42,531 nt of DNA from a virus, in IMG/VR virus record IMGVR_UViG_3300009098_000005, positions 1 through 42,531 of that record; one strand, written 5' to 3'. The notes beneath the pieces were generated by a model. The model did no database searches. It had not been told where the DNA came from and worked only from the letters and a program-made list of their open reading frames with translations. Position 1 is the first letter of the stretch; every line of letters begins with the position of its first letter. Made by a program: the position numbers and the translations under genes. Positions 4,801 through 42,049 of this stretch are shown here, in pieces.

Positions 4801-5025
4801 TCATCGCGCCGACCCCCTCGGCAGCACGCAGCCCGTGTCGGCCATCTGGACGCCGTCGGGCAGGAACTCCCCCGGATGGACGATGACCGTGTGCCCCGTC
4901 GGCCAGAAGACCTGGACCGTGCCCGGCTCGCCGCACTTGGGGCAGATCACGGCCGCGCCGAGGAGGAGGTCACCCGGCGGCGCGGGATCGCCGCGCAGCC
5001 ACGCCCGGTAGTTCTTCTCAGACAC
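4801..5025 (-). CDS. Small zinc-ribbon protein
   Basis: A 74-residue protein starting at GTG and overlapping the end of the transglycosylase gene by eight bases. CPKCGEPG (around residues 29-32) provides one cysteine pair; a later H45 or H50 and C66 may complete a metal site. A hydrophobic strand pattern (TVQVFWPTGHTVIV) suits a zinc ribbon. Last gene of the replication/accessory operon, convergent with the Arc gene. Function unknown. Confidence 0.7.
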   Translation of the reverse strand: MSEKNYRAWLRGDPAPPGDLLLGAAVICPKCGEPGTVQVFWPTGHTVIVHPGEFLPDGVQMADTGCVLPRGSAR

Positions 5026-5518
5026 CCCAACACGACCGACTAGCTGCCCAGTGGAACCCGAAGCGCCCGCCCGAGTCCTCCCACAGCGCGAAGGCCACGC
5101 CGATGTTCACCCACGGGATCAGCACGTTCCGCGTCCCGAACATCCGCGCCGCCAGCCACCCCCACGAGTAGAGCTGGAACAGCCCCGCCGCACCACTCGA
5201 CGGGTTGATCGCGCCCGGATCTCCTTGACTCTCACAACTGATCACGAGAAGCGCCGTGTCGGTCGGCCAGGGGTAGGCGTCCACCGCCTCGCGCCACTGC
5301 TGAACCTGCTCGGTGCCGTAGCTGGCTCGAGGACCGCGCACGGCCGGGACGTACCGAGGCGCCTCCTCCACCGCCTGGGCCGCCGCGCTCCCCCACACGG
5401 TCAGCACGGCGCACACCGCCAGGGCGGCCGTCGCCGCCAGGCGCTGTGGGTTGAACGTCAACGTCCGTCCGCTGCGCGAAACAGCCCAGATTTTGCGTAC
5501 CAGCAGGCCAGCATTCAT
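5018..5518 (-). CDS. Exported lytic transglycosylase-like protein
   Basis: A 166-residue protein. Residues about 26-49 form a signal peptide or membrane anchor (LAATAALAVCAVLTVWGSAAAQA, AxA-type cleavage site). Residues 85-160 show the SLT/goose-lysozyme-like core: catalytic Glu at E96 in ISCESQGDPGAINP, then SGAAGLFQLYSWGW. It should cleave the glycan strands of peptidoglycan outside the membrane. The start ATG was chosen because it precedes the signal peptide directly. Its position in the early/accessory operon, far from the lysis genes, is unusual; roles could be signal-arrest-type lysis, superinfection effects or wall remodelling. Confidence 0.8.
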   Translation of the reverse strand: MNAGLLVRKIWAVSRSGRTLTFNPQRLAATAALAVCAVLTVWGSAAAQAVEEAPRYVPAVRGPRASYGTEQVQQWREAVDAYPWPTDTALLVISCESQGDPGAINPSSGAAGLFQLYSWGWLAARMFGTRNVLIPWVNIGVAFALWEDSGGRFGFHWAASRSCWGV

Positions 5519-5595
5519 ACGCACGCTCCATTGGATGTTTTCGTGGTTGGCCCCATTTCTCGGGCAACGTGGACCGCCGGCACGAGTGGCGTGCC

Positions 5596-5796
5596 TCACG
5601 CGAGCAGTCCGCGTAGTTGACCCCGCAGCTTCTCGGCCTCGAGTCCCAGGCGCACCGCCCGCTGGAGGAGCGCGATGGCCTGCTCGGGCGTCGGCGGCAT
5701 CCGGTCCACGAAGCACCCGTCGCAGTCGGGTGTCGTGATCCAGCGCGTGCAGGTCGGGCACGCGCGCAGTCTCTCGATGGCTTCCTCGCGGGTCAT
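5596..5796 (-). CDS. Small zinc-finger protein
   Basis: A 66-residue protein with GGAGG six to seven bases before the ATG. Two cysteine pairs, CPTC at residues 13-16 and C25/C28 in CDGC, make a four-Cys zinc knuckle; the rest is a helical tail PEQAIALLQRAVRLGLEAEKLRGQL. No named family. It is one of at least six small four-Cys proteins in this operon. Confidence 0.75.
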   Translation of the reverse strand: MTREEAIERLRACPTCTRWITTPDCDGCFVDRMPPTPEQAIALLQRAVRLGLEAEKLRGQLRGLLA

Positions 5797-17931: not shown

Positions 17932-18107
17932 TTGAGGTTGGGCGTCGGCACACCGAAGGCGTTGGCGACCACCACGACGGCGATGATCAGGACGATGACG
18001 ATCACGACCTGGAGCAGCCAGGCCGGCGCCCCCAGCGCGGCCAGGACCACGCGCGCCCCCCAGGCGATCAGGGCCAGGATGATCAACAGGACCAGCAGGG
18101 TCAACAT
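17928..18107 (-). CDS. Small two-span membrane protein, holin-like
   Basis: A 59-residue protein, nearly all membrane: spans at about 2-22 (LTLLVLLIILALIAWGARVVL) and 31-50 (LLQVVIVIVLIIAVVVVANA) with a short loop between. The ATG overlaps the endolysin TGA (ATGA). Such a two-span mini-protein next to endolysin and a second membrane protein is a probable holin, antiholin or pinholin. Confidence 0.78.
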   Translation of the reverse strand: MLTLLVLLIILALIAWGARVVLAALGAPAWLLQVVIVIVLIIAVVVVANAFGVPTPNLK

Positions 18108-19849
18108 CAGGCGTTCCCCTTCACGAGCTTGTGGAGCACGACGGCGTTGTGGACGGTCAGGGCGAGGCCCGCGTCGGCCTGGTCGCCGGTCGCTTGCAGC
18201 GCCGCGTGGGCGCGGTAGATCGGCCCCCACGCCGACGCCTCGTAGTCGAAGGCAGGCGGCTTGGGCACGGGCTTGGGTGGCGTGACCACGGGCGTCCCGC
18301 CGATCCTCGTCTGCCACGCCAGCGCGCTGGCCAGCAGCCTGGCCCGGTCGAATGATCCCGTCGGGTCGCGCCGCCCGTCCCGCTTCCCCGCCGCTGAGTC
18401 CTTGTGCGTGATCAGTCCCGGCTGGGTCTGGTCCGTCACCCACCGCAGCGGGAACTTGTACTTCTGCGCCCACCTGGCCAGCAGCTCGCCCCCCGCCTCG
18501 TAGTAGACGTCGGGGTAGATGGCCGTCGTCCAGGCGGCGCCGTCGGGCATCGCGAACTCGACGCCGAGATGATCCGCGTTGTTCTCCCGCGCGTGGTAGG
18601 CGGTGAGATCATCCGGCACGCAGGTCACCACCTCGGTCGGGCCGACGACCCGGTGGGCCGACACGCCCGCCTCGCGCGATCCGAACCAGTTGGCGGTGGC
18701 CGCAGTCTCGGCCGCCAGGCTCGAGCTGCCCCCTGCCGTGCTGTGAATCACGCAGCCGACCGTCTTGGCGCGCTTCTGCTTGGAGTAGTTGCCCTCCTGC
18801 TCGGACTGGTAGAAGGCGGGGGCCTCGCGGTGGGGACAGCTCAGCACCACGTCGGTCATACTCGAATCCTTCCCTGGTGACGCTGGAATCGGCTTTGTTG
18901 GCGCTGGCGTGGGGGCGGGCGCTGGCGGCGTGCTGGGCGTCGTCGGCAGCCAGGTGATCTGTGGGCCGGGCACGTCCTCGGTGAACACGCCGCGCAGATC
19001 GAGTTCGTCACCTATGTCGAACGAGTCCCACGACGGCTTCGACGCCGGGTCCGCGCCGCAGAGGAAGATGGCCGAGCCGACGCACAACGGGTCGGCCGCG
19101 ATGGCGTGCGACTTGGCCCTGTACCAGGTCGCGTAGTCGCCGGCGGGACCGAAGTAGTCGCGCCACCCACGGCCGGGCCGACGATCGGTCTGCTGCGTCC
19201 CGCCGTCGCAGCCGTCCTCACCGTAGAGGTAGTTAAGCCGCGCCGGCTCGGGCAACTGGGCCAGGATCTGGGCCGGTCTGGTCGAGTGCCACTCGTCTTC
19301 CGAGCCCGACGGCGGATGGCTGTAGCCGTGCGGACACCAGACCGCGCCCAGCGCCCTGAACGTTAGCAGGCACGCCAGCACGCGTGGCTGAAGGAAGTAG
19401 GGCGCGCCGTAGCTCTCGCCGGGTGGGTTGCCCTCGCTGGTCACCAGCACGCCGGGGGTGAAGCCGCTGTGCTTGATCGCGGCGGCGGCGACGGTGCTGA
19501 CCTCGGCCAGGGCGGCGAAGTCGGCGGGGTCGGTGTGGAAGCGCTCGTTGACCGGCACCTCGAGCACGACCGCGATCCCCGCCCCCGCGAGCGTCTGGAA
19601 GCCCTCGAATGCACGTAGCGCCGTGGCGGTCAGCGCGGGCACCTCGGACAGCGGCTCCTTGTCGCTGGTCACGTAGCGCAGGACGAGCACGCCGGGCAGG
19701 CCGCGCGCGAGGCGGGCGATCTTCCATTCGATCGCGAGTTCGAGCGACTTCCCGCCCTGCAGCATCTTGAGCGTGTGCGGGTAAGTCGCTCGAAGCATCT
19801 GCCGCTGCGCGTCGCCGATGGTCTGGAACTGGTAGCCGCATTTGTTCAC
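18107..19849 (-). CDS. Bifunctional endolysin: glycosidase-like domain plus N-acetylmuramoyl-L-alanine amidase
   Basis: A 580-residue lysin starting at GTG in a GTGA overlap. Residues 1-295 look like a TIM-barrel hydrolase (strands around VLVLRYVTSD, GIAVVLEVPVNE and GVLVTSEGNPPGE give candidate Glu residues). A Pro/Thr linker (301-330) leads to an Amidase_2/PGRP domain at 335-500 with candidate zinc ligands H369, H482 and D495. A Pro-rich linker (519-533) precedes a C-terminal helical, possibly wall-binding, region. ATG331 has AAGGA seven bases upstream, so a free amidase may also be made. It degrades host peptidoglycan at lysis. Confidence 0.85.
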   Translation of the reverse strand: MNKCGYQFQTIGDAQRQMLRATYPHTLKMLQGGKSLELAIEWKIARLARGLPGVLVLRYVTSDKEPLSEVPALTATALRAFEGFQTLAGAGIAVVLEVPVNERFHTDPADFAALAEVSTVAAAAIKHSGFTPGVLVTSEGNPPGESYGAPYFLQPRVLACLLTFRALGAVWCPHGYSHPPSGSEDEWHSTRPAQILAQLPEPARLNYLYGEDGCDGGTQQTDRRPGRGWRDYFGPAGDYATWYRAKSHAIAADPLCVGSAIFLCGADPASKPSWDSFDIGDELDLRGVFTEDVPGPQITWLPTTPSTPPAPAPTPAPTKPIPASPGKDSSMTDVVLSCPHREAPAFYQSEQEGNYSKQKRAKTVGCVIHSTAGGSSSLAAETAATANWFGSREAGVSAHRVVGPTEVVTCVPDDLTAYHARENNADHLGVEFAMPDGAAWTTAIYPDVYYEAGGELLARWAQKYKFPLRWVTDQTQPGLITHKDSAAGKRDGRRDPTGSFDRARLLASALAWQTRIGGTPVVTPPKPVPKPPAFDYEASAWGPIYRAHAALQATGDQADAGLALTVHNAVVLHKLVKGNA

Positions 19850-20028
19850 GGCGCCACCGGCTCGAGTCCCGCGACGATCGCCTCGACCAGGCCAACGCAC
19901 CGGGGACACGCGCGCCACCCCATCGCCCAGACCGCCGCGGTCGCGAAGCCGTAGACCGGGTAGCGCCGCAGCGGCCAGTCCCGCAGGACCGCCACTCGGC
20001 CGCAGCGCAGGCAGCGCTCGGCTAGCAC
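19846..20028 (-). CDS. Small zinc-binding protein with hydrophobic middle
   Basis: A 60-residue protein from GTG, overlapping the stop of the gene upstream. CLRCG at residues 6-9 and CPRC at 41-44 form a four-Cys site on either side of a hydrophobic segment (VYGFATAAVWAMGW). The hydrophobic piece may be a membrane span, so it could belong to the lysis cassette. No family recognised. Confidence 0.62.
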   Translation of the reverse strand: MLAERCLRCGRVAVLRDWPLRRYPVYGFATAAVWAMGWRACPRCVGLVEAIVAGLEPVAP

Positions 20029-20216
20029 GGAACGCCCTCACACCGCCCACCCCGGCCACCCCGGCGCAGCTCCTCCTTCAGGAGCTCGAGCGCCAGGTGG
20101 GTGCTCCACTCCGAGGTGCGCGGTACCCTGGTGCGCGGCAGGGCGTTGACCCAGGCGGCGACGACCTCGCGTGGCAGGTCGTCGATGCCCTGGTCCCGGT
20201 CGGACACGGTGCTCAT
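20022..20216 (-). CDS. Small hypothetical protein
   Basis: A 64-residue protein whose ATG overlaps the stop of the coiled-coil membrane protein gene (ATGA). DLPREVVAAWVNALPRTRVPRTSEWSTHLALELLKEELRRG suggests a compact helical domain. No cysteine pairs or membrane spans. No family recognised; position in the lysis cassette is the only clue. Confidence 0.62.
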   Translation of the reverse strand: MSTVSDRDQGIDDLPREVVAAWVNALPRTRVPRTSEWSTHLALELLKEELRRGGRGGRCEGVPC

Positions 20217-27580: not shown

Positions 27581-28423
27581 TTACAGGCCGACGAGGCTGG
27601 GGTGCGGCTGCGCGGTGCGGAGGGGGCCGGGATCGACGGGGGCGATGCGCCCGTCGATCCCGACCAGGGCCAGGTGGTGCCCACCGGCCGGCGTGCGCGC
27701 CGGCCAGACCACCGTCGGGGTGATGTGCCCGACGGGCGCGTCGAGGTCCACGCAGACGCGGAAGCCGGCCGCCCGGACCCGTCGGCAGAACTCGACGTCT
27801 TCGTGCAGGTGATCCGGCGCGACCTGGCCGACCCGGAAGTACGGCCGCTCGAGCGCATCGAAGACCCGCTTGTGGATCAGCACGCCCCCGAGGCCGGCCG
27901 CCGCGATCTCCATCACGCCGCCGCGGCCGTCGGGGATCCACGGCTCCGGGTGGGGCGGGACGGTGGGGTCGTCCAGGTAGACCAGGCTGTCGTGCGGGGG
28001 CTGGCGGCGCAGGCTGTAGGCGCAGACGACGTCGTAGACGCCCTCGGCGAGGACGGCGAGCAGGCGCGTCAGGGTGTCGGGGAGGAGGACGAGGTCGTCG
28101 TCGAGGGTGAAGAGCCAGTCGCCGCGCATCGCGGCGGCGGCCTGGTTGCGGTTGGTGGCGATGTCCATCCCCGCCGACTGCACCAGCGCGGTGCCCGGCG
28201 GGGAGGCGAGCCCCGTCAGGCTGCGCCAGAAGGCGGCGTAGCGGAGCAGCTCCCCCGTCACGATCCCGATCGTGCCGGGGGGGTGCGTGGTCTGGTCGAC
28301 GGGGGTGAAGGGGTGCGCGTCCATGGCCGCCGCGAGGTCGAAGCCCCCCGACCCGGTCGCGACCGGGTCGGGGGTGGTGGTGAGGAGGGTGCGCTGGCCG
28401 AACGGCGCGCGCGTGGTCGGCAT
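27581..28423 (-). CDS. GT-A family glycosyltransferase in the head operon
   Basis: A 280-residue protein. Residues 50-130 form a GT2-like nucleotide-binding region with the metal-binding DDD at 108-110 (WLFTLDDDLVLLPDTL); 170-190 has GGVMEIAAAGLGGVLIHKRVF and 208-209 ED in HLHEDVEFCRRVRAAG matches the catalytic base region. It is a transferase of sugars from nucleotide-sugars. It lies six bases after the capsid gene, so a virion protein (capsid, decoration or fibre) may be the acceptor. No membrane span. Confidence 0.87.
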   Translation of the reverse strand: MPTTRAPFGQRTLLTTTPDPVATGSGGFDLAAAMDAHPFTPVDQTTHPPGTIGIVTGELLRYAAFWRSLTGLASPPGTALVQSAGMDIATNRNQAAAAMRGDWLFTLDDDLVLLPDTLTRLLAVLAEGVYDVVCAYSLRRQPPHDSLVYLDDPTVPPHPEPWIPDGRGGVMEIAAAGLGGVLIHKRVFDALERPYFRVGQVAPDHLHEDVEFCRRVRAAGFRVCVDLDAPVGHITPTVVWPARTPAGGHHLALVGIDGRIAPVDPGPLRTAQPHPSLVGL

Positions 28424-28429
28424 CGGCGG

Positions 28430-29410
28430 CTACTCGCCGCCGGTCGAGGCGCGCTGCTGCAGAACCGCCGCCGGGTAGCGGGTGGCCGAGTTGGTGTTCA
28501 TGCGGTTGATGGGGTTGGGGACGGCGAAGCCGTACCGCGCGACCCAGCGGGTGGCGACCATGTCCTGCTGCATTAAATTGGTCACAATTGTGCCGTCCGA
28601 CGCCTGGATGACGCCCTCGCGGAAGAGCTCGGAGTCGATGTCCTCGCGGACGCCGAGGATGAACTGGTCCCAGTCGGCGGCGACGACGGAGTAGTTGCCG
28701 GCCGCGGTCGCGAAGCCGGCCAGGCCCGCCTGGCTGAAGGCCAGCTTCTCCCCGTAGAGGGTCGCCATGCGCTGGTTGGCGTCGGCCGCGCCCGTGTTGG
28801 CCGGCCCCGCCGGGTCGTACAGGAACCCCTTGTTGGCGTCGCGCATCCCGCGCAGGTACGCCTTGAACTGGCTGCGCGCCCAGAAGCCGTTGACCGCGTA
28901 GCCGTCGTTCTCGACGGCGAGCATCACCTGGTTGAGGTCCTCGAGCGTGTCGATGGCGCTCGTGCCGGCGATCACGACGTTGGAGGCCGCGACGGCGGCG
29001 GGGACGACGGCGGTCGGCCAGGAGGCCGGCTTGTTGGTGCCGAAGAGCACCGCGTCGTCGAGGGCGATGGCGAAGGCCTCCTCGACCAGCGGCTTGATCT
29101 CGTCCCAGAGGGGGTAGTCGACGTCCTTGAGGAGCGCGATGGGGATCGCGACGATGACGGCGAGCTCCTCGGCGTAGAGGTACACGTTGTCCCACGACAT
29201 GGTCGAGGTCGTCTTGAGGCCGGTCTCCGAGGTGAGCCAGCCCACGGTGGGGTAGCTCGCCATCACCGGGATGCGCTGCTGCTGGCGGCTCATGCGCCGC
29301 TGCTTCATGAGCTGCATGACCGCCGACTTGTTGCGCACCCCCTTGACGATGTCTTTCTGCACGTCCTCGGGGATGAGCGCGAGCGAGGTCGCCCGCGTGA
29401 TCGATGCCAT
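28430..29410 (-). CDS. Major capsid protein (HK97 fold)
   Basis: A 326-residue protein with AAGGA before the ATG. The N-terminal ITRATSLALIPEDVQKDIV, RIPVMASYPTVGWLTSETGLK, the E-loop region, then YAEELAVIVAIPIALLKDVDYPLWDEI and DDAVLFGTNKP and the C-terminal FAVPNPINRMNTNSATRYPAAV are typical of HK97-type capsid proteins of the Phage_capsid/T7-independent group. No N-terminal protease or long delta domain is present, so a separate scaffold is used (next gene upstream). Confidence 0.92.
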   Translation of the reverse strand: MASITRATSLALIPEDVQKDIVKGVRNKSAVMQLMKQRRMSRQQQRIPVMASYPTVGWLTSETGLKTTSTMSWDNVYLYAEELAVIVAIPIALLKDVDYPLWDEIKPLVEEAFAIALDDAVLFGTNKPASWPTAVVPAAVAASNVVIAGTSAIDTLEDLNQVMLAVENDGYAVNGFWARSQFKAYLRGMRDANKGFLYDPAGPANTGAADANQRMATLYGEKLAFSQAGLAGFATAAGNYSVVAADWDQFILGVREDIDSELFREGVIQASDGTIVTNLMQQDMVATRWVARYGFAVPNPINRMNTNSATRYPAAVLQQRASTGGE

Positions 29411-31898: not shown

Positions 31899-32117
31899 GT
31901 GCAACCGCACTCCGACCGCATCGGCTACGCCACCTCGGCGCTGTTCGTCCTGATCAGCGCCGGGTTCTGGCGGTTTCACGTCGTTTTCGCGCCGATCCCG
32001 CCGCCGGGCTACCCCATCCCCGATTGGTGGGTGATGCCGCTGATGGTGGTGTGGCTCGCGACGCTGTGCGCGGTCGCGGCCGGGGCGGACTGGCTGCGGC
32101 GCCGGCTCAGCGACTAG
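31899..32117 (+). CDS. Moron-like two-span membrane protein
   Basis: A 72-residue plus-strand protein. Spans at about 9-28 (IGYATSALFVLISAGFWRFHVV) and 43-64 (WWVMPLMVVWLATLCAVAAGAD) are linked by a Pro-rich loop and followed by an Arg-rich end. It starts at GTG, leaderless, and converges with the 1353-residue gene, overlapping its last 11 bases. An isolated membrane protein with its own promoter inside the virion operon is typical of superinfection-exclusion or conversion genes; that role is inferred. Confidence 0.65.
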   Translation: MQPHSDRIGYATSALFVLISAGFWRFHVVFAPIPPPGYPIPDWWVMPLMVVWLATLCAVAAGADWLRRRLSD

Positions 32118-35100
32118 CACCGGCCGTCGCCTTCTCGCGGTAGCGCCGACTCAGCTCGGCCGACCCGAGCTCGCCGAACAGGATGCCACCCGCCGCCGTC
32201 CGCGCCCGCTCGACCGCGCCCTGCAGGATCTTCTGGCGCGTCTCGCGGGGCAGGGCGGCGAAGCGGGGGTCGGCGGTGATCTTGCCGACCGTGTCGGCGA
32301 TGAGACCGCCCGCGATCTCCTGGTGGCGCTGCTGGTCGGCGGGGGAGAGCGGCACCGACTTGACCTCCTTGGGGGGTGCGCCGATGTCGGCGCCGTTGTC
32401 GAGCAGCACCTGGAGCACCTGGTCGGGTCGGCCCTCGCTCGAGCGGAGGGGGATCAGGGCGCCGAGCCCCTGCTGCTCGTTCGTGACGTCGCGGCCCAGC
32501 ACGTCCTGCTTCGCCGGTAGCCCCTCGCGCAGACCGGGGAAGCGCCCCGCCAGCGCCTGACCGATATCGCCCTTGCCCGGTTGACGGATGAGCGGGTCGG
32601 TCATCTGGCCGACGGTGTTGATCGCCGCGCCCATGGGGACGAGCGTCTGGACGTACTGGCTGAGCCACTGCTGGCCGAACCGCTCGGGGTCGTTGATCGC
32701 CTTGTAGACCGCGCCGATGCCCTGGAGGTAGTTCTGCTCGGTCAGCACCTTGGCCGAGCGGCCGAAGGCGTCGAGCACCTTGTCCCCCGTGGTGGCGCCC
32801 GGCTTGGCGTAGGTCTGCGCCTCGGCCGCGCCCGCCATCAACGAGAGCGGGATCGCGACCGGGCCCCAGTTCGTGTAGGAGACCCAGCGCCCGCCGACGT
32901 TGACCGAGTACCGTCCCCAGCCCTGCGCCTCGAGCATCTTGAGCTTCTCGGGGTCGTCGGGCCCGGCGCCCGAGATGTTGCCCTCCATCGCCTGGCCGTA
33001 CATCCACGCCGAGGCGGCCGTGCCCAGCACGTTGTCGGTCAGCCGCGGCCCGAGGGGGCGTACCCCTTTGGGCAGATCCTTGCCGCCGCGGTAGACGCCG
33101 CGCGCCACGTCGATGCCGGTGCCGACCAGGCCGAGCGGCGAGCGGTCGATGCCGCGCGCGGTGATGTGGTAGACGGTCCGGAGGAACGGGATGATCGCCG
33201 GCCCCACGATCTTGTACTGCTGGGCCTTGTTCAGCAGTTGGCCGAGATCGCCCATGTCGCCCTTGAAGGTCATGTCGTTCGCCGCGATCTCGGCCCGCTT
33301 CAGGGCCGACGGGGTCGGCGTCTCGATCAGGTCGGCGACCCGCTCCGTCCAGGCGGTGCCCCTGAGCCCCTCCTTGTTCGCCTGGATGGCGGCCTCGCGG
33401 GCGACGTGCATGGAGCGGCCGACAGAGAGCATCACCTCGTCGGTCGCCTGCGCGACGGTCATCGGCGCCTCGAGCGCGCGGGCCACGCCCTTCGCGAGCG
33501 GGTTCGACACCCGCGCCGAGACGGACCGGGGCACGTCGCCGGCCAGGGCCTGCTCCTCGGTGATGCCCTTGGGGATCGTCTCCATGGCCGGCTTGAGCCC
33601 GCGCTGCAGCCCCGCCCACATCGCCCGCGCCTCGGGGACGATCTCGCCGGGATGGCCCCGCACCGTGGACATCACCGCGTCGGTGGCGAGCTTCCACGGC
33701 ACCTCGGTCCCGCCCGAGAGGAGGTTGACCAGGATCGTGCGCGGCCCCGAGAGCATCGCGTTCTTGCGCAGCAGCTCCCACCAGTCGTTGAACCCGACCG
33801 GGGGCGCCTCCTTGCGCGCCCAGAAGGCCGCCTGCGCGAAGACGTCCCCTCCGTCCGCGAGCAGCTTCTGGTACTCGGCGACGGCCTTGTTGGCCTGCTC
33901 GGCCCCACCCACCGCCTTGTAGATCCGCTCGACCGCCCCGCCGGGGTTGGCGATCGAGTCGCGCGCGTGGGCCGAGTAGGCGCGCAGCGTGCGACCCGCC
34001 TCGGCTCGAGCACCTTCAGCGATGCGACTCAGGTCGTTGAGCTTCATCCCCTGCGCGATCGACTCGGCGATCATCGCGGGCGTTGCGTCGTGGGGCGCCT
34101 TCGCGATAGCAGCGGTCAGGTCGTTGAGCAGCATCGCCTGGCCGGTGACCGCGTTCCTGAGCGCCCGGGTCTCCTCGGTGTTGTGGGCCTTCCCGGCCTT
34201 GCCGCCCGCGATGAGCTGATCGACCGACCGGCCCAGGTCGTCGGCCATCCGCTCGGCCGCCGCGTCGGGGATCACGCCGCGGCGCTGCTTCATCCAGAAG
34301 GCGCCGTCGGTGGCGGCCTGCTGGATGACGTCGCGCACGCCCTCGGGGAACTTGTCGAGCCGGATGCGGGCCACCTCGGCGGCGGTGGCGGCGGCGGTCC
34401 TGATCGACGGGACGACCGCGCCGGCCACCTTCCCCGCGACCGTGGCGCCGGCGTTCGCGATTGGCTCGCCCGTCATCGCCAACGCGAACGGCAGCCCACG
34501 CTCGACCGACCGGTTCATCTCCTCCGCGGTGACCTGTGGCCCGCCCGCCGCGATGCGCGCATCCCGCGCCGCCTGCTCCTCGGGCGTGCCGTGGATGAAG
34601 GTGGACCGGTCCGTGTTCGCCTGCTCGATCGCCCCCACCAGCACGTCCCCGCCGGCGTCGAACGCTCCCACCGCCGCACGGCCCACGCTCTCCGCCGTCG
34701 GGAAGGGTGCCCCCGTGTCGTCGCTCGGGGCGCCGGGGTTGGGCACCGCCCAGGCCGGCACCAACGGCCCATCCGGGGACGCCCCCGCCTCGACACCACG
34801 CCGGTAGCGACCGGTCAGCTCGGCTGCTTGTGGCTCCTGATCGTTCAGCGGTGGCTCGGAGAGATCGGGCGTGGCACCCGCACCCACGCTCGGGGTGGGA
34901 CTCTGGGGGTTATCGACGAAGAGCGCCCCGTTGATGCCGCCGTCGAGGGTGGCGATCTGCTGCGCGCTCATCCACGAGCCGCCACCGCGCCGGGCCTCGC
35001 CGGTCTTGCCGACGTGGAGCTGCCCGGTCTGCTTGTCGTAGCCGTTGACGAAGTAGTAGTGGACGCCCGTGCTGATGATGACCGGGTTGCCGGCCGCGGC

Positions 35101-36168
35101 GTCGGCCGCGATCACCCCGAAGTCGGGGTTGGTGTCGAGCCGGGAGCTCACCCCCATCTGCGCGAGGAGCTTCTGCTCGTTGGCCACCCCGTTCATCCCG
35201 CCCTGGCTCGTCCAGCCGACCTGCTTGGCCAGCCGCCGTGCCTCACCGAGGTCGGGATTGCGCCCGTTGGCCTGGGCGAAGGCCAGCGCCGCGACCGGCC
35301 CGCACACGCTGTAGGCGTCCTCCGTCGGCAACCCCTGCTCGAATTGCCCGAGGGCCTCGACACCTGGCGACGCCTGCGGGCCACTTTTCGTGAATCCCGC
35401 CATGCTGGCGTCCTGACCGGCCTGATCCTCGCCCGCCCCGTAGCTGTACGCCTGGCGCCCCGCGCCGCTCGGCCGGGCGTTCCTGCCCTCGAGCAGTCCG
35501 AGCTGGTCGGAGGCGTTCTTCCACGCCCCGTACCCCTGAGCGTTGAAGATCTCGCGCGCAGCCCGCGCGTTCTGGACGGGATCGTTGAGGTCGTACCTCT
35601 GTGCGAGGTCGGGGTGGGCGCGGGCGTTGATCTGGAGGACGCCGTGCGAGTCCTCGACCTCGTCGGTCTTCTGGGCTGAGGCGCTCCCCCCGGACTCCCG
35701 CTCCATGATGGCGAGCATGTTCTCGACCGCCTCGGGGCCGAGGTCCCCGAAGGCCGCCTGCACCGCGCCCCGGTGCTGCTCCACCCCGGCACCGACGGGT
35801 CCGCGTGCTGTGGCCTGCGCGGCGCGCGACTGGGCCGTGAAGGACGCGCCGCTCGTCTGCTGCTCGTGCTGGGCGAACTGGGCGAACTGGGCGATCTGGG
35901 CGTCCTCGCGGGCGACGCGGGCCTGCCAGTCCTGCTCGGGCACGACGCGCTCGGCCTGCTCGGTCTGCGCCAGCGCCGCGATCTGGGCGTCTTCCTGCTG
36001 CGTGCGCGCCGTCCACGCCTGCTCGCGCTGCACGGGGGCGAGGGCGTCCTGCTGCTCGGCCGCCGCGAGGTCCGCGATCTGGGCGTCCTGGTCCGTGGTG
36101 AGCGCGGCGAACTGGGTGTCGGCGTGGGCGCGCCACTGCTCGACAGGGACCGGGGGAAGGCCCGGCAC
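32107..36168 (-). CDS. Giant internal virion/ejection protein with transglycosylase-like, papain-like and LPD38-like regions
   Basis: A 1353-residue protein from GTG. Residues 10-105 carry three repeats of the DAQIAxLAxxEQ type, a coiled-coil stalk. About 125-225 is a transglycosylase-like domain (LAIMERESGGSASAQ, SHGVLQINARAHPDLAQRYDL). About 275-415 is a papain/C39-like peptidase domain with Cys289 (YSVCGPVAALAFAQ), H370 and D378 (VHYYFVNGYD). From about 560 to 1200 are long helices and a block I recognise from LPD38-type polyvalent proteins (FLRTVYHITARGIDRSPLG, NVLGTAASAWMYGQ, WGRYSVNVGGRWVSYTNWGP). It is probably ejected with the DNA to cut peptidoglycan and pass the envelope. Confidence 0.85.
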   Translation of the reverse strand: MPGLPPVPVEQWRAHADTQFAALTTDQDAQIADLAAAEQQDALAPVQREQAWTARTQQEDAQIAALAQTEQAERVVPEQDWQARVAREDAQIAQFAQFAQHEQQTSGASFTAQSRAAQATARGPVGAGVEQHRGAVQAAFGDLGPEAVENMLAIMERESGGSASAQKTDEVEDSHGVLQINARAHPDLAQRYDLNDPVQNARAAREIFNAQGYGAWKNASDQLGLLEGRNARPSGAGRQAYSYGAGEDQAGQDASMAGFTKSGPQASPGVEALGQFEQGLPTEDAYSVCGPVAALAFAQANGRNPDLGEARRLAKQVGWTSQGGMNGVANEQKLLAQMGVSSRLDTNPDFGVIAADAAAGNPVIISTGVHYYFVNGYDKQTGQLHVGKTGEARRGGGSWMSAQQIATLDGGINGALFVDNPQSPTPSVGAGATPDLSEPPLNDQEPQAAELTGRYRRGVEAGASPDGPLVPAWAVPNPGAPSDDTGAPFPTAESVGRAAVGAFDAGGDVLVGAIEQANTDRSTFIHGTPEEQAARDARIAAGGPQVTAEEMNRSVERGLPFALAMTGEPIANAGATVAGKVAGAVVPSIRTAAATAAEVARIRLDKFPEGVRDVIQQAATDGAFWMKQRRGVIPDAAAERMADDLGRSVDQLIAGGKAGKAHNTEETRALRNAVTGQAMLLNDLTAAIAKAPHDATPAMIAESIAQGMKLNDLSRIAEGARAEAGRTLRAYSAHARDSIANPGGAVERIYKAVGGAEQANKAVAEYQKLLADGGDVFAQAAFWARKEAPPVGFNDWWELLRKNAMLSGPRTILVNLLSGGTEVPWKLATDAVMSTVRGHPGEIVPEARAMWAGLQRGLKPAMETIPKGITEEQALAGDVPRSVSARVSNPLAKGVARALEAPMTVAQATDEVMLSVGRSMHVAREAAIQANKEGLRGTAWTERVADLIETPTPSALKRAEIAANDMTFKGDMGDLGQLLNKAQQYKIVGPAIIPFLRTVYHITARGIDRSPLGLVGTGIDVARGVYRGGKDLPKGVRPLGPRLTDNVLGTAASAWMYGQAMEGNISGAGPDDPEKLKMLEAQGWGRYSVNVGGRWVSYTNWGPVAIPLSLMAGAAEAQTYAKPGATTGDKVLDAFGRSAKVLTEQNYLQGIGAVYKAINDPERFGQQWLSQYVQTLVPMGAAINTVGQMTDPLIRQPGKGDIGQALAGRFPGLREGLPAKQDVLGRDVTNEQQGLGALIPLRSSEGRPDQVLQVLLDNGADIGAPPKEVKSVPLSPADQQRHQEIAGGLIADTVGKITADPRFAALPRETRQKILQGAVERARTAAGGILFGELGSAELSRRYREKATAGASR

Positions 36169-38370
36169 CTAGGCCGCCCGCCGGCGCCCACGCGCGGGGC
36201 CACTCGCCACGGGCAGACTCTTCAGGTACTGCTCGGCCGCGTCCTTGCGGTCGTAGCCGCCGGCCTCGTACCCACTCCAGAGCATCTGCCGCCCGTACTC
36301 GCTGTTGCGCGCCATGTCGGTCGGGCTGAGTTGCCCCGGCGCGGTGATGGCCGGCGGCTTGTAGACCGGCAGGGTGTGCAGCACCGCCGGCACCTGGCCG
36401 GGCACGGGAAGTTGCCCGGCCGCCGGCGGGGGACCAGCCAGGGCACCCAGACTCCCCGGCACGGCTGGGCGGACCGGGGGTGGCGCGCCGAGGCCACCGG
36501 GGGCGCGGGTGCCGGCCGTGGCCGTCGGGTCGGGGGCAACCACCCCCACGGCGGGGGCGCGGCCGTCGGGGCCGAAGGGGCTGGCGACGGCGGCGGGGGT
36601 CGGTGCCCGGCCATCCGGCCCGAAGGGAGAGGCCGTCGGCGGGGCGGTCCGCATCGCGTCCGCGAGCGGCGAGGCGCCGGCGACCGGACTGGCCCCGGTG
36701 GCCTGGGCCGCGTTGGTCACCCCGCTGGCCACGGGCGCCGCGACCGGGAGGGTCGCGAGCGTCTGGGCCGCCGACCGCTGGGTGTTCATCGTGCCGGGGC
36801 CGAGCCCCGCCTCGGCGGTGAGCGGCGTCGTCATCTGCCCCGGCACGATGGGCGAGATTGCCGCCTGCCCGCCCGTCGCCGTCGGCCCCAGTGGCGCGAC
36901 TGGGGGTGTGGCTGGTGGCTGCCCCGGCTGGGGCACGCCCACGTCCCCGAGCACGCCGGCCTGCGCGGGGGACCTGGACGCGACCGGCAGGGTGCTCGTC
37001 ATCTGCTGGATGGTGGCGCGCACGCTGTCGGGCAGGTTGGCCAGGGTCTGCGCGTAGACGAAGGCGTTCTCGGGTCCCCGGAGCTGGGACAGGACGTTGA
37101 GCGCCGCGATGGCGTCCTGATTCTGGGTGTGCTGGGCGTCGGGGGTCAGGGTCTGGAAGGACCCGGCTGGCCGACCCGTCACCTCGGCCAGGGTGCGGGC
37201 CGCCACGTCCTCGGGCATGGTGGACCCGGTCGCGGCGTAGTAGGCGTTGGCCCGCGCCGCCATCTGGGCGCCCTGCTCCTGGGAGATCCCGGCCGTCTGC
37301 GCCCAGATGCCGGCCGCCTCGGGGCCGGACCCGGTGATCGCCGGGTTGGCGGCCTTCGCCTGGGCGAAGGCGGCGGCGGCGCGGCCGGCGGGGCCGCTGC
37401 CGGGGGCGCGGCCGGTGAGCTCGGCCTCGAGGCGCCGGCGGTCGTCCTCGAGCTTCTGGGCGTCGAGGGTCGGCGTGCCGTCGGGGGCCTTGCCGGTGAG
37501 CTGGGCGGTCTGGAAGGCCTGGAGCCAGACCTGCTTGGCCAGGTCCTGGCGCAGCTTCTCGCGCTCGACCTCGGTCTTGAGCGCCAGCTCGGGGAGGTCG
37601 ATCTCCTCGAGCCGCCGCTTGGCCAGCCAGGCCAGGACGGCGTTGTTGGCCACCTGCGCCGCCAGCTGCGCCGCCGGGATGTTCACCCCTTGCCCCGCCG
37701 GCCCCGTCCCCGGTGCGGTGGTGCCCGGATCACTGCCTCCGCCCGACGGCTGGGCACTCGGGGCGGATGGTGCGGACGGTGCGGACGGGGGCGCGTCACC
37801 GGTGCGGGTGTTGTAGTCGGCGGCGGCCTCGGCCTCGGTGGCGAACTGGTTGGGCACGCCGTCGACCACCGAGGTGAAGCCGCCCGCGTTGGGGGCGACG
37901 TGGTTGTTGGGGTCGAAGGCGCGGGCCTGGGCGGTCCGCGTCGGGGGACCCAAGGCGATCCCGGCCGAGGCGCTGCGGCCAGCCAGCCCCGGATGGGCCG
38001 CGTTCCAGGCCGGGTCCCACGACCCCCCGAACACGTTGCCCTGCGCGTCCACCTGCTGGAACCGCTGAACCTTGCCGACCTCGTTGGCGATCCGGTGGGA
38101 GAAGCCCGGATCGTTCTCGGCCTTGCCGGGGGTGACCCCCTGCATGATGGGCGTCCAGACCCCGTTGGCGGCGCGGCGGCGGACCCCGTACTCCTTGTCG
38201 GGCGTGTTGCCCCAGGCGTTGAGCTCGTCGAGGGTCTGGGGGAAATGCGCCTTGTCGTTGAAGAACTGGATAATGATCTCGGGCTGAATACCGATCTTGC
38301 GGGCGAGCTCGGTCGCCTGCTGCTCGACGCGGTAGACCCCCGCGTCCCCGAAGTCGTTGAGCGTCGGCAT
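36169..38370 (-). CDS. Large Pro/Ala-rich virion-operon protein
   Basis: A 733-residue protein; the ATG overlaps the stop of the gene upstream (ATGA). The N-terminal 130 residues (VEQQATELARKIGIQPEIII, FPQTLDELNAWGNTPDKEYG) look folded; the rest is Pro/Ala/Thr/Gly-rich with short tandem repeats such as PSAPSAPSA (around residue 190-200) and two copies of ASPFGPDGRAP (around 580-610), plus helices in 240-500. No family recognised. It stands between the portal-side genes and the giant internal protein, so it may be an internal or ejected protein. Confidence 0.7.
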   Translation of the reverse strand: MPTLNDFGDAGVYRVEQQATELARKIGIQPEIIIQFFNDKAHFPQTLDELNAWGNTPDKEYGVRRRAANGVWTPIMQGVTPGKAENDPGFSHRIANEVGKVQRFQQVDAQGNVFGGSWDPAWNAAHPGLAGRSASAGIALGPPTRTAQARAFDPNNHVAPNAGGFTSVVDGVPNQFATEAEAAADYNTRTGDAPPSAPSAPSAPSAQPSGGGSDPGTTAPGTGPAGQGVNIPAAQLAAQVANNAVLAWLAKRRLEEIDLPELALKTEVEREKLRQDLAKQVWLQAFQTAQLTGKAPDGTPTLDAQKLEDDRRRLEAELTGRAPGSGPAGRAAAAFAQAKAANPAITGSGPEAAGIWAQTAGISQEQGAQMAARANAYYAATGSTMPEDVAARTLAEVTGRPAGSFQTLTPDAQHTQNQDAIAALNVLSQLRGPENAFVYAQTLANLPDSVRATIQQMTSTLPVASRSPAQAGVLGDVGVPQPGQPPATPPVAPLGPTATGGQAAISPIVPGQMTTPLTAEAGLGPGTMNTQRSAAQTLATLPVAAPVASGVTNAAQATGASPVAGASPLADAMRTAPPTASPFGPDGRAPTPAAVASPFGPDGRAPAVGVVAPDPTATAGTRAPGGLGAPPPVRPAVPGSLGALAGPPPAAGQLPVPGQVPAVLHTLPVYKPPAITAPGQLSPTDMARNSEYGRQMLWSGYEAGGYDRKDAAEQYLKSLPVASGPARGRRRAA

Positions 38371-38708: not shown

Positions 38709-40763
38709 CTACATCTGCCCCGGCAGCGGCAGCGCGGCACCGGGCGCGTTCGGCACGCCACCCGGCATCCCGGCTGGGTTGGCCGGCAGGCCACTGCCCA
38801 CCCCACCACCGGTCACCGCGCCGGCCGGGGTGGGCACGAGCGGCATCCCCTCCTGACCCGGCTGGTAGACTTGGCCGGTCTGGCCGAGTGCCGCGCCGGG
38901 ATCGGCAGGAGGTGCCGGCGGGGCGGCCTCGGCGAGGCGCCGCTGGTCGGCCAGGGCGAGCTGCTGGAAGACCCCCTGCTTCATCCGGTCGAGGATGGCG
39001 GGGTCCTGCTTGAGCATCTCGAGCAAGAGCCCCCGCTCGACCTCGTCGGGGTTGCCGCCGAGTTCCTCGATGGCCATCGCCTTGGTCTCGAAGCCCTGCG
39101 CCACCATCTCGGCGTGCTGGCGCACATCGATCACCCGGTTCGAGGGCGTGTCCGGGTCGAGCCGGATCTTGTACCGGTGGACCCCGTTGAGCTCGTCGGG
39201 ACCAATCCCCAGCCAGCCCGCGTCCCCACCGCGCTTGTTCTTGCCCTTGGGCGGCTCGCCCCAGCAGTAGACGGTCTCCATAATTTTGTGCTCGATGAGC
39301 CACGACTCGAAGCCGACGCGCTTGGCCAGCGCCCGCTCGGCGTTGGCGACGATGGGGCTCCACGCGATCATCGCCAGATGCACCGCCTGGTTCAGCGCGT
39401 AGCCCGAGTCGGTGGTGTCCACCACCCCCTGCACCACCGACGGGAGGGCCAATTCGATGAGGCCCCGGACCTCGCCGAGCATCTTGTCGAGCTCGCGGCC
39501 CCCCTCGGGCATCTCGATGGGGCCGACGTCGTAGGGGTAGATCGTCCCCGGCTCGATCACCTCGGGGGAGCCGACCCGCTTCTCCGTCCCGTCCCGCCCG
39601 TAGTCCGAGTCGGGGAGCCCCGCGTTGGGTGGCTGCAGCCGCTTGAAGCTCGCGTAGGCGGTGAGTGTGGCGTTCGCACCCCGCGCCGTGAGGAGGCGAT
39701 CCAGCAGCGGGAAGAGGGGGAGGAAGCCGTAGATGACGCTGAGCCCAGTCCGGTCGGGCTGGCGGCTACTGGTCGTTACTCCCTGGGCCTGGAAGTAGGG
39801 ACCACGCAGACTCTTGGTCACCGGGTCGCCGTAGCCGTGCTTGAAGGACTTGACGAGCTGGCCGCGGCCGAGCTTGCCACTGCCGCTGGCGGTGTCGCCG
39901 GGGCCGAGGAGGAGGTAGGTGCACTCCTTGTAGGTCCAGAACTCGACCATCAGGAGGGTGCGCACCCGGCTCATCACGCGGTGCCAGTCGGCGACCGGCA
40001 TCCCCATCGCGGCGGGACAGACCCGGCCGCCCCCGTCCAGGCCCATCGCGTACTTGGCGAGGGTCTCGAGGTAGGGGACGCGCTTGACCTCGGCCACGCA
40101 GGTCACGCCGCCGGCGCCGCGCAGGTAGTAGTACGTCTCGGGCGGGACGTCCACCGTCGTGATCGGGTAGCCGGCCCGCCCGCGCTTGTAGTCCTCGGTG
40201 TCGTGGTGGTACTTGTCGTCCTTCTGCTTCTGGTCGAGGTGGCGGTACTCGTCGGAGTCGAGGGCTTCTTGGAGCGTGCGGGAGTAGGTGTCGTAGCCGG
40301 CGAAGGCACTCTTGCTGCGCTCGGTGGTCTTGAGGACGCCCTCGCCCTTGGTGATGAGCGCGTGCATGAACTTGCGGAAGAGCTGCGAGTCGGCCTCGTC
40401 TTCTTGGCGGCGCCAGGAGGCGTCGAAGAAGTGCTCGCGGAGGGTGGCGTTCTCCTGGTGGGTGTCGCCGAAGCCGACGGGGAGGAACTGGGTGGTCGGG
40501 GGGTTGACGGTCATGGCGGCGGTGATGGTGTTGGTGATGTGGATGGGGAGGGGGCTTCTGACCTCCTCGGCGTACTCCTGGTACGCCTCGGGGATCAGGA
40601 CCGGCACCTCGCCGTAGATCACCTTATCGATGTCGTCGTACAGGTGGTCGCGCGCCTTGAAGTCGGCCCGCAGGGAGTCGACGATCTCGCTGATCTCGCT
40701 GACCTTACCGGCGTCGTCGCGGTCGCGGGAGAGGGTGCCCTCGGCGGCGAGCAGGTCGGTCAC
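38709..40763 (-). CDS. Portal protein
   Basis: A 684-residue protein, the size of podovirus portals. ATG start in an ATGA overlap with the large terminase. It has the expected elements: an N-terminal wing (YDDIDKVIYGEVPVLIPEAYQ, SPLPIHITNTITAAMTVNPP), a stem/crown centre (YPYDVGPIEMPEGGRELDKML, LIELALPSVVQGVVDTTDSGYALNQ), and a Pro/Gly-rich tail after residue 600. It should form the ring at the packaging vertex and the docking site for terminase and adaptor. Confidence 0.85.
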   Translation of the reverse strand: MTDLLAAEGTLSRDRDDAGKVSEISEIVDSLRADFKARDHLYDDIDKVIYGEVPVLIPEAYQEYAEEVRSPLPIHITNTITAAMTVNPPTTQFLPVGFGDTHQENATLREHFFDASWRRQEDEADSQLFRKFMHALITKGEGVLKTTERSKSAFAGYDTYSRTLQEALDSDEYRHLDQKQKDDKYHHDTEDYKRGRAGYPITTVDVPPETYYYLRGAGGVTCVAEVKRVPYLETLAKYAMGLDGGGRVCPAAMGMPVADWHRVMSRVRTLLMVEFWTYKECTYLLLGPGDTASGSGKLGRGQLVKSFKHGYGDPVTKSLRGPYFQAQGVTTSSRQPDRTGLSVIYGFLPLFPLLDRLLTARGANATLTAYASFKRLQPPNAGLPDSDYGRDGTEKRVGSPEVIEPGTIYPYDVGPIEMPEGGRELDKMLGEVRGLIELALPSVVQGVVDTTDSGYALNQAVHLAMIAWSPIVANAERALAKRVGFESWLIEHKIMETVYCWGEPPKGKNKRGGDAGWLGIGPDELNGVHRYKIRLDPDTPSNRVIDVRQHAEMVAQGFETKAMAIEELGGNPDEVERGLLLEMLKQDPAILDRMKQGVFQQLALADQRRLAEAAPPAPPADPGAALGQTGQVYQPGQEGMPLVPTPAGAVTGGGVGSGLPANPAGMPGGVPNAPGAALPLPGQM

Positions 40764-42049
40764 CGGACGGCCCCGAAGCGCATCGGACGCGGCGGCGGGG
40801 CGGACGCGGTGGCCTCGAGCAGGGCGCCGTAGCGCAGGGCGTCGACCCCGTGGTCCTCGGTCTTGGCGTGCCCGACCTTGTCGGCCAGGTCCTCGTTGTC
40901 GAGCGGGTCATGCACCATCGCCGGCAGCGTCCTGATCAGGTTGGGGCACCGCTCCCGCATCACCCGCAGCCGCGGCGCGGTCTCGGCGTCGTGGGCGAGG
41001 AGGCGGCGCACCGCCTGCCAGCCGGGGACGCGGCTGTTCTGGGCGGGCTCGAGGGGCACGCCGGCGGCCTGGTAGACCGAGGCGATACTGGGCTTGTCCT
41101 GCTCGCTCCGGCGGTTGAACATCGACGGGTCACCCACCGCCTTACTGATGCGCTCGCCCTGGCAGCGGGCGGCGACCAGTTGTGCCTGCTGCTCGTCGCG
41201 GAGGCCGGTGGCGTAGAGCTCGCGGTAGACGTGGACGGTGCGGCGCGGATCGGGGGCACGGGCGAACCAGAGGGCGCAGAAGGGGTCGGCGAAGCCGTAG
41301 TCGACGCTGAGCCAGCGCGTCCAGTCGGGGGGCGGGTCGAAGGCGTCCTCGAGGTGGACGGTGGGGTCCCACTCGGTGAAGTACATCCCCTCGGCCGACA
41401 CGCGCTCGCCGTAGTAGAGGCGCCGGAGCCGGTGGCCGGTGAGGTTACGGAGGGGAGCGAGGCGCTCCTCGGTGATGGTGGGGTTGTCGGCGTGGCGGAC
41501 CTGGAAGAAGGTCACCTGGCCGGCGGCCTCGCGGGCGTAGAGGTGGAAGCCGGGGGATGTGGGGTTCATGTCGGCGATGAGGCGCGCGTAGGGCATCACG
41601 GCGCCGCGGCCGGTGACGCGGGTGGTGAGCATCTCCCAGTCGTCCTGGGTGAGCTCCTCGGCCTGCATCACGTAGACGCCGTCGAACTCGGAGGAGAGCA
41701 GGCGCGTCGGCTCGTCGAGGCCGGCGAGCACGATCACCGAGCCGTTGGGGTAGCGGTACTCGAGGTCGTGCCAGAGGCGGGAGCGGCCGGCGGGACGGAC
41801 CCACTTCTCGTAGGTCTTCTGGGCGGTCTCGGTGATGGACGAGCGGGTCTTGCGCACGATCGACCACTGGCAGCCGGGGTACTTCTCGCAGGCGGCGTGG
41901 ACGAGCTCGAGGCAGGCGCGGCTCTTGCCGGTGTCGGCTGGGCCCTCGAGCACCGACTCCGTGCCGCGGTGGCGGAAGAAGTCGAGGATGACGTCGCCGA
42001 ACGCGACGTAGGCGCGCGGGTCGGCGACGGGCGCGGCGGCGACGGGCAC
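40760..42049 (-). CDS. terL: Large terminase subunit
   Basis: A 429-residue packaging motor. Walker A GPADTGKS is at residues 36-43, Walker B-like VYVMQAEE at 125-132 and a coupling motif after it. The nuclease domain shows the acidic residues D250 (SVDYGFADP), D307 (AVGDPSMF) and D403 (DHGVDALRYG). It hydrolyses ATP to pump DNA into the head through the portal and cuts the concatemer. It starts at GTG one base after the small terminase stop. Confidence 0.95.
   Translation of the reverse strand: MPVAAAPVADPRAYVAFGDVILDFFRHRGTESVLEGPADTGKSRACLELVHAACEKYPGCQWSIVRKTRSSITETAQKTYEKWVRPAGRSRLWHDLEYRYPNGSVIVLAGLDEPTRLLSSEFDGVYVMQAEELTQDDWEMLTTRVTGRGAVMPYARLIADMNPTSPGFHLYAREAAGQVTFFQVRHADNPTITEERLAPLRNLTGHRLRRLYYGERVSAEGMYFTEWDPTVHLEDAFDPPPDWTRWLSVDYGFADPFCALWFARAPDPRRTVHVYRELYATGLRDEQQAQLVAARCQGERISKAVGDPSMFNRRSEQDKPSIASVYQAAGVPLEPAQNSRVPGWQAVRRLLAHDAETAPRLRVMRERCPNLIRTLPAMVHDPLDNEDLADKVGHAKTEDHGVDALRYGALLEATASAPPPRPMRFGAVR

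Follow-up and report, generated by a model that had tools for sequence, protein, structure and literature searches.

Gene and genomic context

The window analyzed here, a viral DNA stretch of 42,531 nt, carries a gene for a 1,353-aa protein between its terminase and capsid genes (Table 1). A preliminary description of this locus had given the ends of the gene and omitted its strand; a single open reading frame spans positions 32107 to 36168 exactly, and it lies on the minus strand (read 36168→32107), the corresponding frame on the plus strand being interrupted by stops. The GC content by codon position, about 0.72/0.51/0.94, is steady along the whole length of this frame, which fits the coding sequence of a GC-rich phage. 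No family match was found for the 733-aa product of the gene immediately upstream, which from its position is a possible partner ejection protein.

Several other genes in the window bear on the kind of phage that it represents. The major capsid protein is of the siphophage/actinophage type (it matches those of Mycobacterium phages FF47 and Muddy at 43.6%), and it occurs alongside a podovirus-type internal protein. Directly downstream of its gene and within the structural cluster is a gene for a family 2 glycosyltransferase (27581 to 28423, minus strand), which is also found in L001. A second protein with an SLT domain (5018 to 5761, minus strand; PF01464, 23.6 bits, above the cut-off) has a signal-like hydrophobic stretch and is probably secreted. 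The phage's own lysin has an N-terminal portion (residues 71 to 379) that had no Pfam match and yet is shared with a lysin-like protein of Chloroflexota (L034; E = 4e-25).

Table 1. Features of the ejection-protein locus and of related genes in the window
Feature	Residues	Position	Strand	Basis or remark
Gene for the putative ejection protein		32107..36168	-	1,353 aa; GTG start right behind the TAG of the upstream gene
Upstream 733-aa gene		36169..38370	-	Possible partner ejection protein, by position
Gln/Ala-rich head with imperfect repeats (QDAQIA.LAQ.EQ type)	1-115	35824..36168	-	Reading of the translation
Lytic-transglycosylase/lysozyme-like domain	146-216	35521..35733	-	PF18896 and PF01464 above cut-off, isolated segment
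Expected catalytic glutamate (ERESGG ... HGVLQIN)	E158	35695..35697	-	GH23 motif
C39-like papain-fold module, exchangeable cassette	271-428	34885..35358	-	L002 identity, fold matches, relatives
Probable oxyanion-hole residue, invariant	Q275	35344..35346	-	Nine-sequence alignment
Putative nucleophile, sole cysteine of the protein	C289	35302..35304	-	ComA and nine-sequence alignments
Putative catalytic histidine	H370	35059..35061	-	ComA and nine-sequence alignments
Asp outside the C39 catalytic position, missing in one relative (L034)	D378	35035..35037	-	ComA and nine-sequence alignments
C39 catalytic-Asp position	K388	35005..35007	-	ComA and nine-sequence alignments
Internal-virion-protein (T7 gp16 class) region	about 565-1306	32251..34476	-	phrog_6651, tblastn
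Terminase large subunit, same gene cluster		40760..42049	-	phrog_2, E = 1e-26
Major capsid protein		28430..29410	-	phrog_10, E = 2.9e-39
Phage's own lysin		18107..20059	-	N-terminal domain common to L034, plus Amidase_2

Internal virion protein region

The C-terminal half of the protein is related to internal proteins of podoviruses. Residues 1049 to 1306 match phrog_6651 ("internal virion protein") with an E value of 3.3e-20, and in tblastn searches residues 565 to 1289 match podovirus internal proteins, including the "internal virion protein D" of ProddE (23.6% identity) and a protein of Podoviridae ctQWt234. By this family match, the protein belongs to the T7 gp16 class, and it would be expected in the virion and among the proteins ejected from it. 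Inspection by eye of the full sequences of the ProddE and ctQWt234 homologues revealed no transglycosylase motif. The part of the protein beyond the two enzymatic domains had been described as a large polyvalent, LPD38-like region. LPD38 itself was rejected for the window protein: PF18857 had no match there at E <= 1 and none in the whole 42,531-nt record, although the profile does match the counterpart protein of phage L002, described below.

Predicted glycan-cutting domain

Sequence comparison confirms residues 146 to 216 as a predicted lytic transglycosylase domain. When residues 120 to 250 were searched in isolation, both PF18896 (SLT_3; E = 8e-9, 36.3 bits against a cut-off of 27) and PF01464 (SLT; E = 5.4e-5, 23.2 bits against a cut-off of 21.3) scored above their cut-offs; with the full-length 1,353-aa protein, SLT scored below the Pfam threshold (18.6 bits). 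A fragment of a close relative (L003) likewise exceeds the cut-offs for SLT_3 and SLT, and both proteins contain E158-S159 and the downstream HGVLQIN, in agreement with a pattern of ES followed by G(V/L)xQI. We take ERESGG with HGVLQIN downstream to be the GH23 pattern and E158 to be the likely catalytic acid. The preliminary description had pointed to this site as E157/E159; the glutamates are there, but the numbers were one off, E156 and E158 being correct. The assignment rests on sequence, since the structural model of this domain, made from two sequences, has a pLDDT of 54 and no usable fold. Compared with nine chains, this low-pLDDT model had no structural match at Z >= 2, and PDB sequence searches with the segment gave chance matches only.

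Fold and active site of the C39-like module

Residues 271 to 428, which follow the transglycosylase domain, are confirmed by a predicted structure and by sequence relatives as a papain-fold, C39-like module. Its own match to PF13529 (C39_2) is weak (E = 0.026, 15.5 bits against a cut-off of 24), and the cut-off is exceeded by two of its relatives, L038 (29.8 bits; 48.6% identical to the window module) and L032 (24.5 bits; 45.6% identical). PDB sequence searches with the module gave chance matches only. An AlphaFold model of residues 112 to 440 was built from three input sequences, with a mean pLDDT of 48.6 and values of about 50 to 76 in the module, and the top Foldseek matches of this model were PCAT1 and 3zua (E = 7.5e-3, prob 1.00). 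VIA comparisons matched C39 domains with Z scores of 10 to 11 over 119 to 137 residues. The closest were the C39-like domain of HlyB (3zua; Z 11.4, rmsd 3.2 over 126), the wall-peptide cutter PeiR, a pseudomurein endoisopeptidase (8z4n; Z 10.6, rmsd 3.1 over 128), and the ComA peptidase (5xe8; Z 10.5, rmsd 3.1 over 124), all three matches being inside model positions 162 to 317. Among viral structure models, the best match was a Gordonia phage endolysin. Thus, the transglycosylase-like and papain-like regions named in the preliminary description both hold; the structure prediction that it proposed as a check returned a C39 fold for the module, at modest pLDDT, and nothing usable for the transglycosylase part.

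The active site was examined by alignment to ComA; the ComA query matched the entire length of PDB chain 8hf7_A, and the Streptococcus mutans sequence was taken from the PDB search output. C289 and H370 fall on the catalytic pair of ComA, and K388 falls on its catalytic Asp. A triad of Cys289, His370, and Asp378 had been proposed for this protein, of which the first two members stand. The column of D378 is Asp in ComA of S. pneumoniae and Gln in that of S. mutans, and D378 as the catalytic Asp is ruled out by the alignments to ComA and nine relatives. In the nine-sequence alignment, which includes relatives down to 31% identity, the invariant positions include Q275, C289, H370, Y371, and W399. 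At K388, the nine residues are, in order, K, K, Q, A, N, N, Q, N, Q; Asn occupies the third catalytic position in three of the nine sequences, and the window has Lys there, neither Asp nor Asn. With Lys at this position in the window and Ala in one of the relatives, the classical charge relay is not present, and lacking the Asp, the domain may be dead or may use a different catalytic arrangement. For this reason, we refer to a C39-like fold module and not to a canonical C39 peptidase. Furthermore, C289 is the only cysteine in 1,353 aa, where about 8.5 would be expected at the rate found in ten other proteins of the phage, and the 1,663-aa protein of L002 likewise has a single cysteine, at the matching position.

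Relatives of the module and their domain company

A profile built from the modules of the window and L002 detected strong relatives in 5 of 400 Chloroflexota genomes (E values of 1e-48 to 1e-18) and in none of 396 genomes from the phylum to which L021, a Propionibacteriaceae MAG, belongs. All five genomes belong to one Chloroflexota class, which was represented by 29 genomes (Fisher P = 1.4e-6). With a nine-row profile, strong matches again came from the same five genomes, and weak ones came from two further Chloroflexota genomes and from three in the phylum of L021. There was no match in 297 genomes from the phylum to which an Acidobacteria MAG belongs. A tblastn search of a phage collection with the module gave no match.

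The Chloroflexota relatives (L032 to L038; 31 to 48% identical) carry the module beside a glucosaminidase, SLT, or SH3 domain. It follows a glucosaminidase in L032 and L033 (E = 1.6e-24 and 3.9e-14) and an SLT domain in L034 (E = 1.1e-13), and it is accompanied in L035 and L036 by an SH3 domain that scores just under the cut-off. Most of these proteins are chromosomally encoded or secreted (both apply, apparently, to L035 and L037), and a phage context is seen only for L033 and L034. L034 is lysin-like, with a holin-like gene directly downstream, and is collinear with the window protein over the second half of SLT and the entire module (E = 3e-20). L033 lies at the end of a phage-like contig in which the order of genes is that of the window: the terminase large subunit (phrog_2), products of 724, 165, and 461 aa, and a wall-cutting domain with the module. 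Farther off in the same contig is a gene that by eye is integrase-like (L048). One Chloroflexota genome also has an extra copy of the module that seems to be broken and is spread over two overlapping frames (L049, G104:C34).

Module genes found also on chromosomes, with apparently secreted products, weigh against a firm wall-cutting assignment, so that a wall substrate is proposed from this domain company and the module is described as a putative peptidoglycan endopeptidase. The peptidase-like domain looks borrowed from bacterial cell wall enzymes. The distribution of the module ties unclassified viruses to one uncultured Chloroflexota class, and the host is probably an uncultured Chloroflexota bacterium. 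A capsid-based genome search returned prophages in Chloroflexi, Acidobacteria, and other MAGs, all of them without internal proteins, so that the host cannot be assigned from the capsid match by itself.

Exchange of the module as a cassette

L002 has the gene order of the window and is about 40% identical to it in the capsid, scaffold-like, and portal-like genes. Its module is part of a 1,663-aa protein (L002:4437-9428) that contains LPD38 (E = 1.9e-20). Similarity between the two proteins is confined to window residues 271 to 430, with 77% protein identity, and the module DNA is 78% identical, its similarity breaking off sharply at 35359 and at 34884; BLASTP found no similarity between the C-terminal halves (E = 0.088). 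This degree of identity within proteins that are otherwise unrelated shows that the module moves as a cassette. The dN/dS ratio of the module is 0.33 in comparison with L002 and 0.08 in a comparison with part of L003, which indicates that it is under purifying selection.

The N-terminal domain of the L002 protein was not recognized by Pfam, and by eye it has an E followed by GTFQL. Thus, three N-terminal domains precede one module: SLT in the window, the unrecognized domain in L002, and glucosaminidase in L033, these being the three phage or phage-like elements that carry it. It is quite possible, though somewhat less likely than not, that one Chloroflexota class has a family of C39-like wall peptidases that are relaxed at the third catalytic position (Lys/Asn/Gln/Ala), and that this family is passed as a cassette among wall enzymes of the hosts, lysins, and podovirus ejection proteins. 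In the latter, it would be paired with exchangeable glycan cutters (SLT, glucosaminidase, and the unrecognized domain) to suit the walls of uncultured monoderm hosts. The module is a candidate new wall-peptidase family, and its activity and active-site variation are directly testable.

Proposed function and alternatives

The reading that we favor, with some reserve, is that the gene encodes a gp16-class ejection protein and belongs to a podovirus-like phage whose host is probably a Chloroflexota bacterium. In this protein, a lytic transglycosylase (E158) and then a cysteine peptidase module of the C39-like type (Q275, C289, and H370) would cut glycan and peptide during opening of a monoderm wall. 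If it behaves like T7 gp16, the protein would exit the head ahead of the DNA. The transglycosylase would then cut glycan strands and the module peptide stems or cross-links, both cuts making way for the DNA tunnel, and the C-terminal remainder would enter the membrane or cytoplasm. A single protein carrying both domains may thus be able to cut both types of wall bond. The dual wall-opening head proposed in the preliminary description remains the best-supported reading of the sequence, without its D378 and LPD38 details, and is strengthened by the independent domain contexts in Chloroflexota genomes. A second, peptide-cutting enzyme, if true, would explain how a short-tailed phage crosses a monoderm wall.

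The domain company also bears on whether the module acts on the wall at all. ComA and PCAT1, which are C39 enzymes that cut double-glycine sites, are among its closest folds, and release of domains by peptidases is common in polyvalent proteins (PMC5512222), so that an ordinary protease that processes the ejection protein or its partners, or that cleaves a host protein once inside the cell, as is thought for polyvalent-protein peptidases, is an explanation to consider. We regard it as unlikely: papain-like enzymes are absent from the four polyvalent peptidase superfamilies reported (MPTase, assemblin-like, DD, and LonC), and the Chloroflexota modules adjoin glucosaminidase, SLT, and SH3 domains and occur in one lysin by a holin-like gene. 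A role in lysis, with the protein acting as a fusion of lysin and structural protein and not being ejected, would be in keeping with that same lysin-like protein (L034). It is nevertheless highly improbable, as the phage already has a separate Amidase_2 lysin, the gene has the terminase gene on one side and the capsid gene on the other, and internal virion proteins are matched by the C-terminal half.

The active site raises a different question, namely, whether the module is catalytically dead and kept for binding of a wall peptide or a tunnel partner, in the manner of HlyB. The C39-like domain of HlyB is inactive, and it gave the best Z score of the comparisons; Lys at the Asp position of the window module points the same way. 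HlyB-type domains lack the cysteine, though, and in the module family C289, H370, and Q275 are invariant in nine sequences while the third position drifts among N, Q, K, and A. The retention of just one cysteine in each of two very large proteins also argues against a dead domain, which we consider slightly less probable still than an ordinary protease.

Relation to known systems

A literature search did not find a transglycosylase and C39-like module described on an ejection protein of the T7 gp16 class. The preliminary description could not name a described system for such a protein; this holds for the exact combination, and precedents exist in phi29 gp13 and in a C39_2 and lysozyme protein of cyanophage S-RIM14. 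The novel points are the presence of the module in a gp16-class ejection protein, the existence of its family within a single Chloroflexota class, and the cassette exchange; dual wall-cutting virion proteins are already known from phi29 gp13. That protein is a tail-tip (tail-knob) protein with a peptidase domain different from that of the window protein, and it is not of the internal gp16 class, unlike the window protein. It is a described dual-activity virion wall hydrolase, and the two are alike in that one virion protein of a short-tailed phage with a monoderm host joins a lysozyme-like domain to an endopeptidase (PMC9863714). In Gram-positive phages, virion proteins that cut the wall often have two catalytic domains, a pattern that the two-enzyme head fits (PMC9863714).

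Ejection proteins of the T7 type with a single wall enzyme are known, and T7 gp16 (internal virion protein D) is likewise large and internal with an N-terminal transglycosylase, the likeness in the window extending to the C-terminal half through phrog_6651 and the ProddE protein (PMC8954989). However, T7 gp16 has the transglycosylase only, and the C39-like module stands where T7 has the "molecular tape." The siphophage/actinophage type of the capsid protein is a further difference from T7. The LPD38 polyvalent proteins are similar in being large, injected, and multidomain, and the L002 counterpart has this domain, but the window protein does not, and papain-like peptidases have not been reported in that class. 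C39-like domains are known in mycobacteriophage lysins, among which the N5 domain of Bxz2 gp11, likened here by its description, is a C39-like cysteine peptidase found with glycan- or amide-cutting domains (PMC3314691). Those N5-domain lysins are lysis proteins and not virion proteins.

A similar combination of domains is found in a 1,205-aa hypothetical protein of S-RIM14 (KX349301 9843-13460; L060:9344-12958), which adjoins baseplate hub genes and matches Peptidase_C39_2 (E = 9.8e-11) and Phage_lysozyme (E = 4.5e-9). It differs in that S-RIM14 is a T4-like myovirus, the peptidase precedes the lysozyme, and the gp16-type part is absent; the window-module profile did not match it. A second large hypothetical protein by the same baseplate hub genes (L060:6093-9341) contains Phage_lysozyme2.
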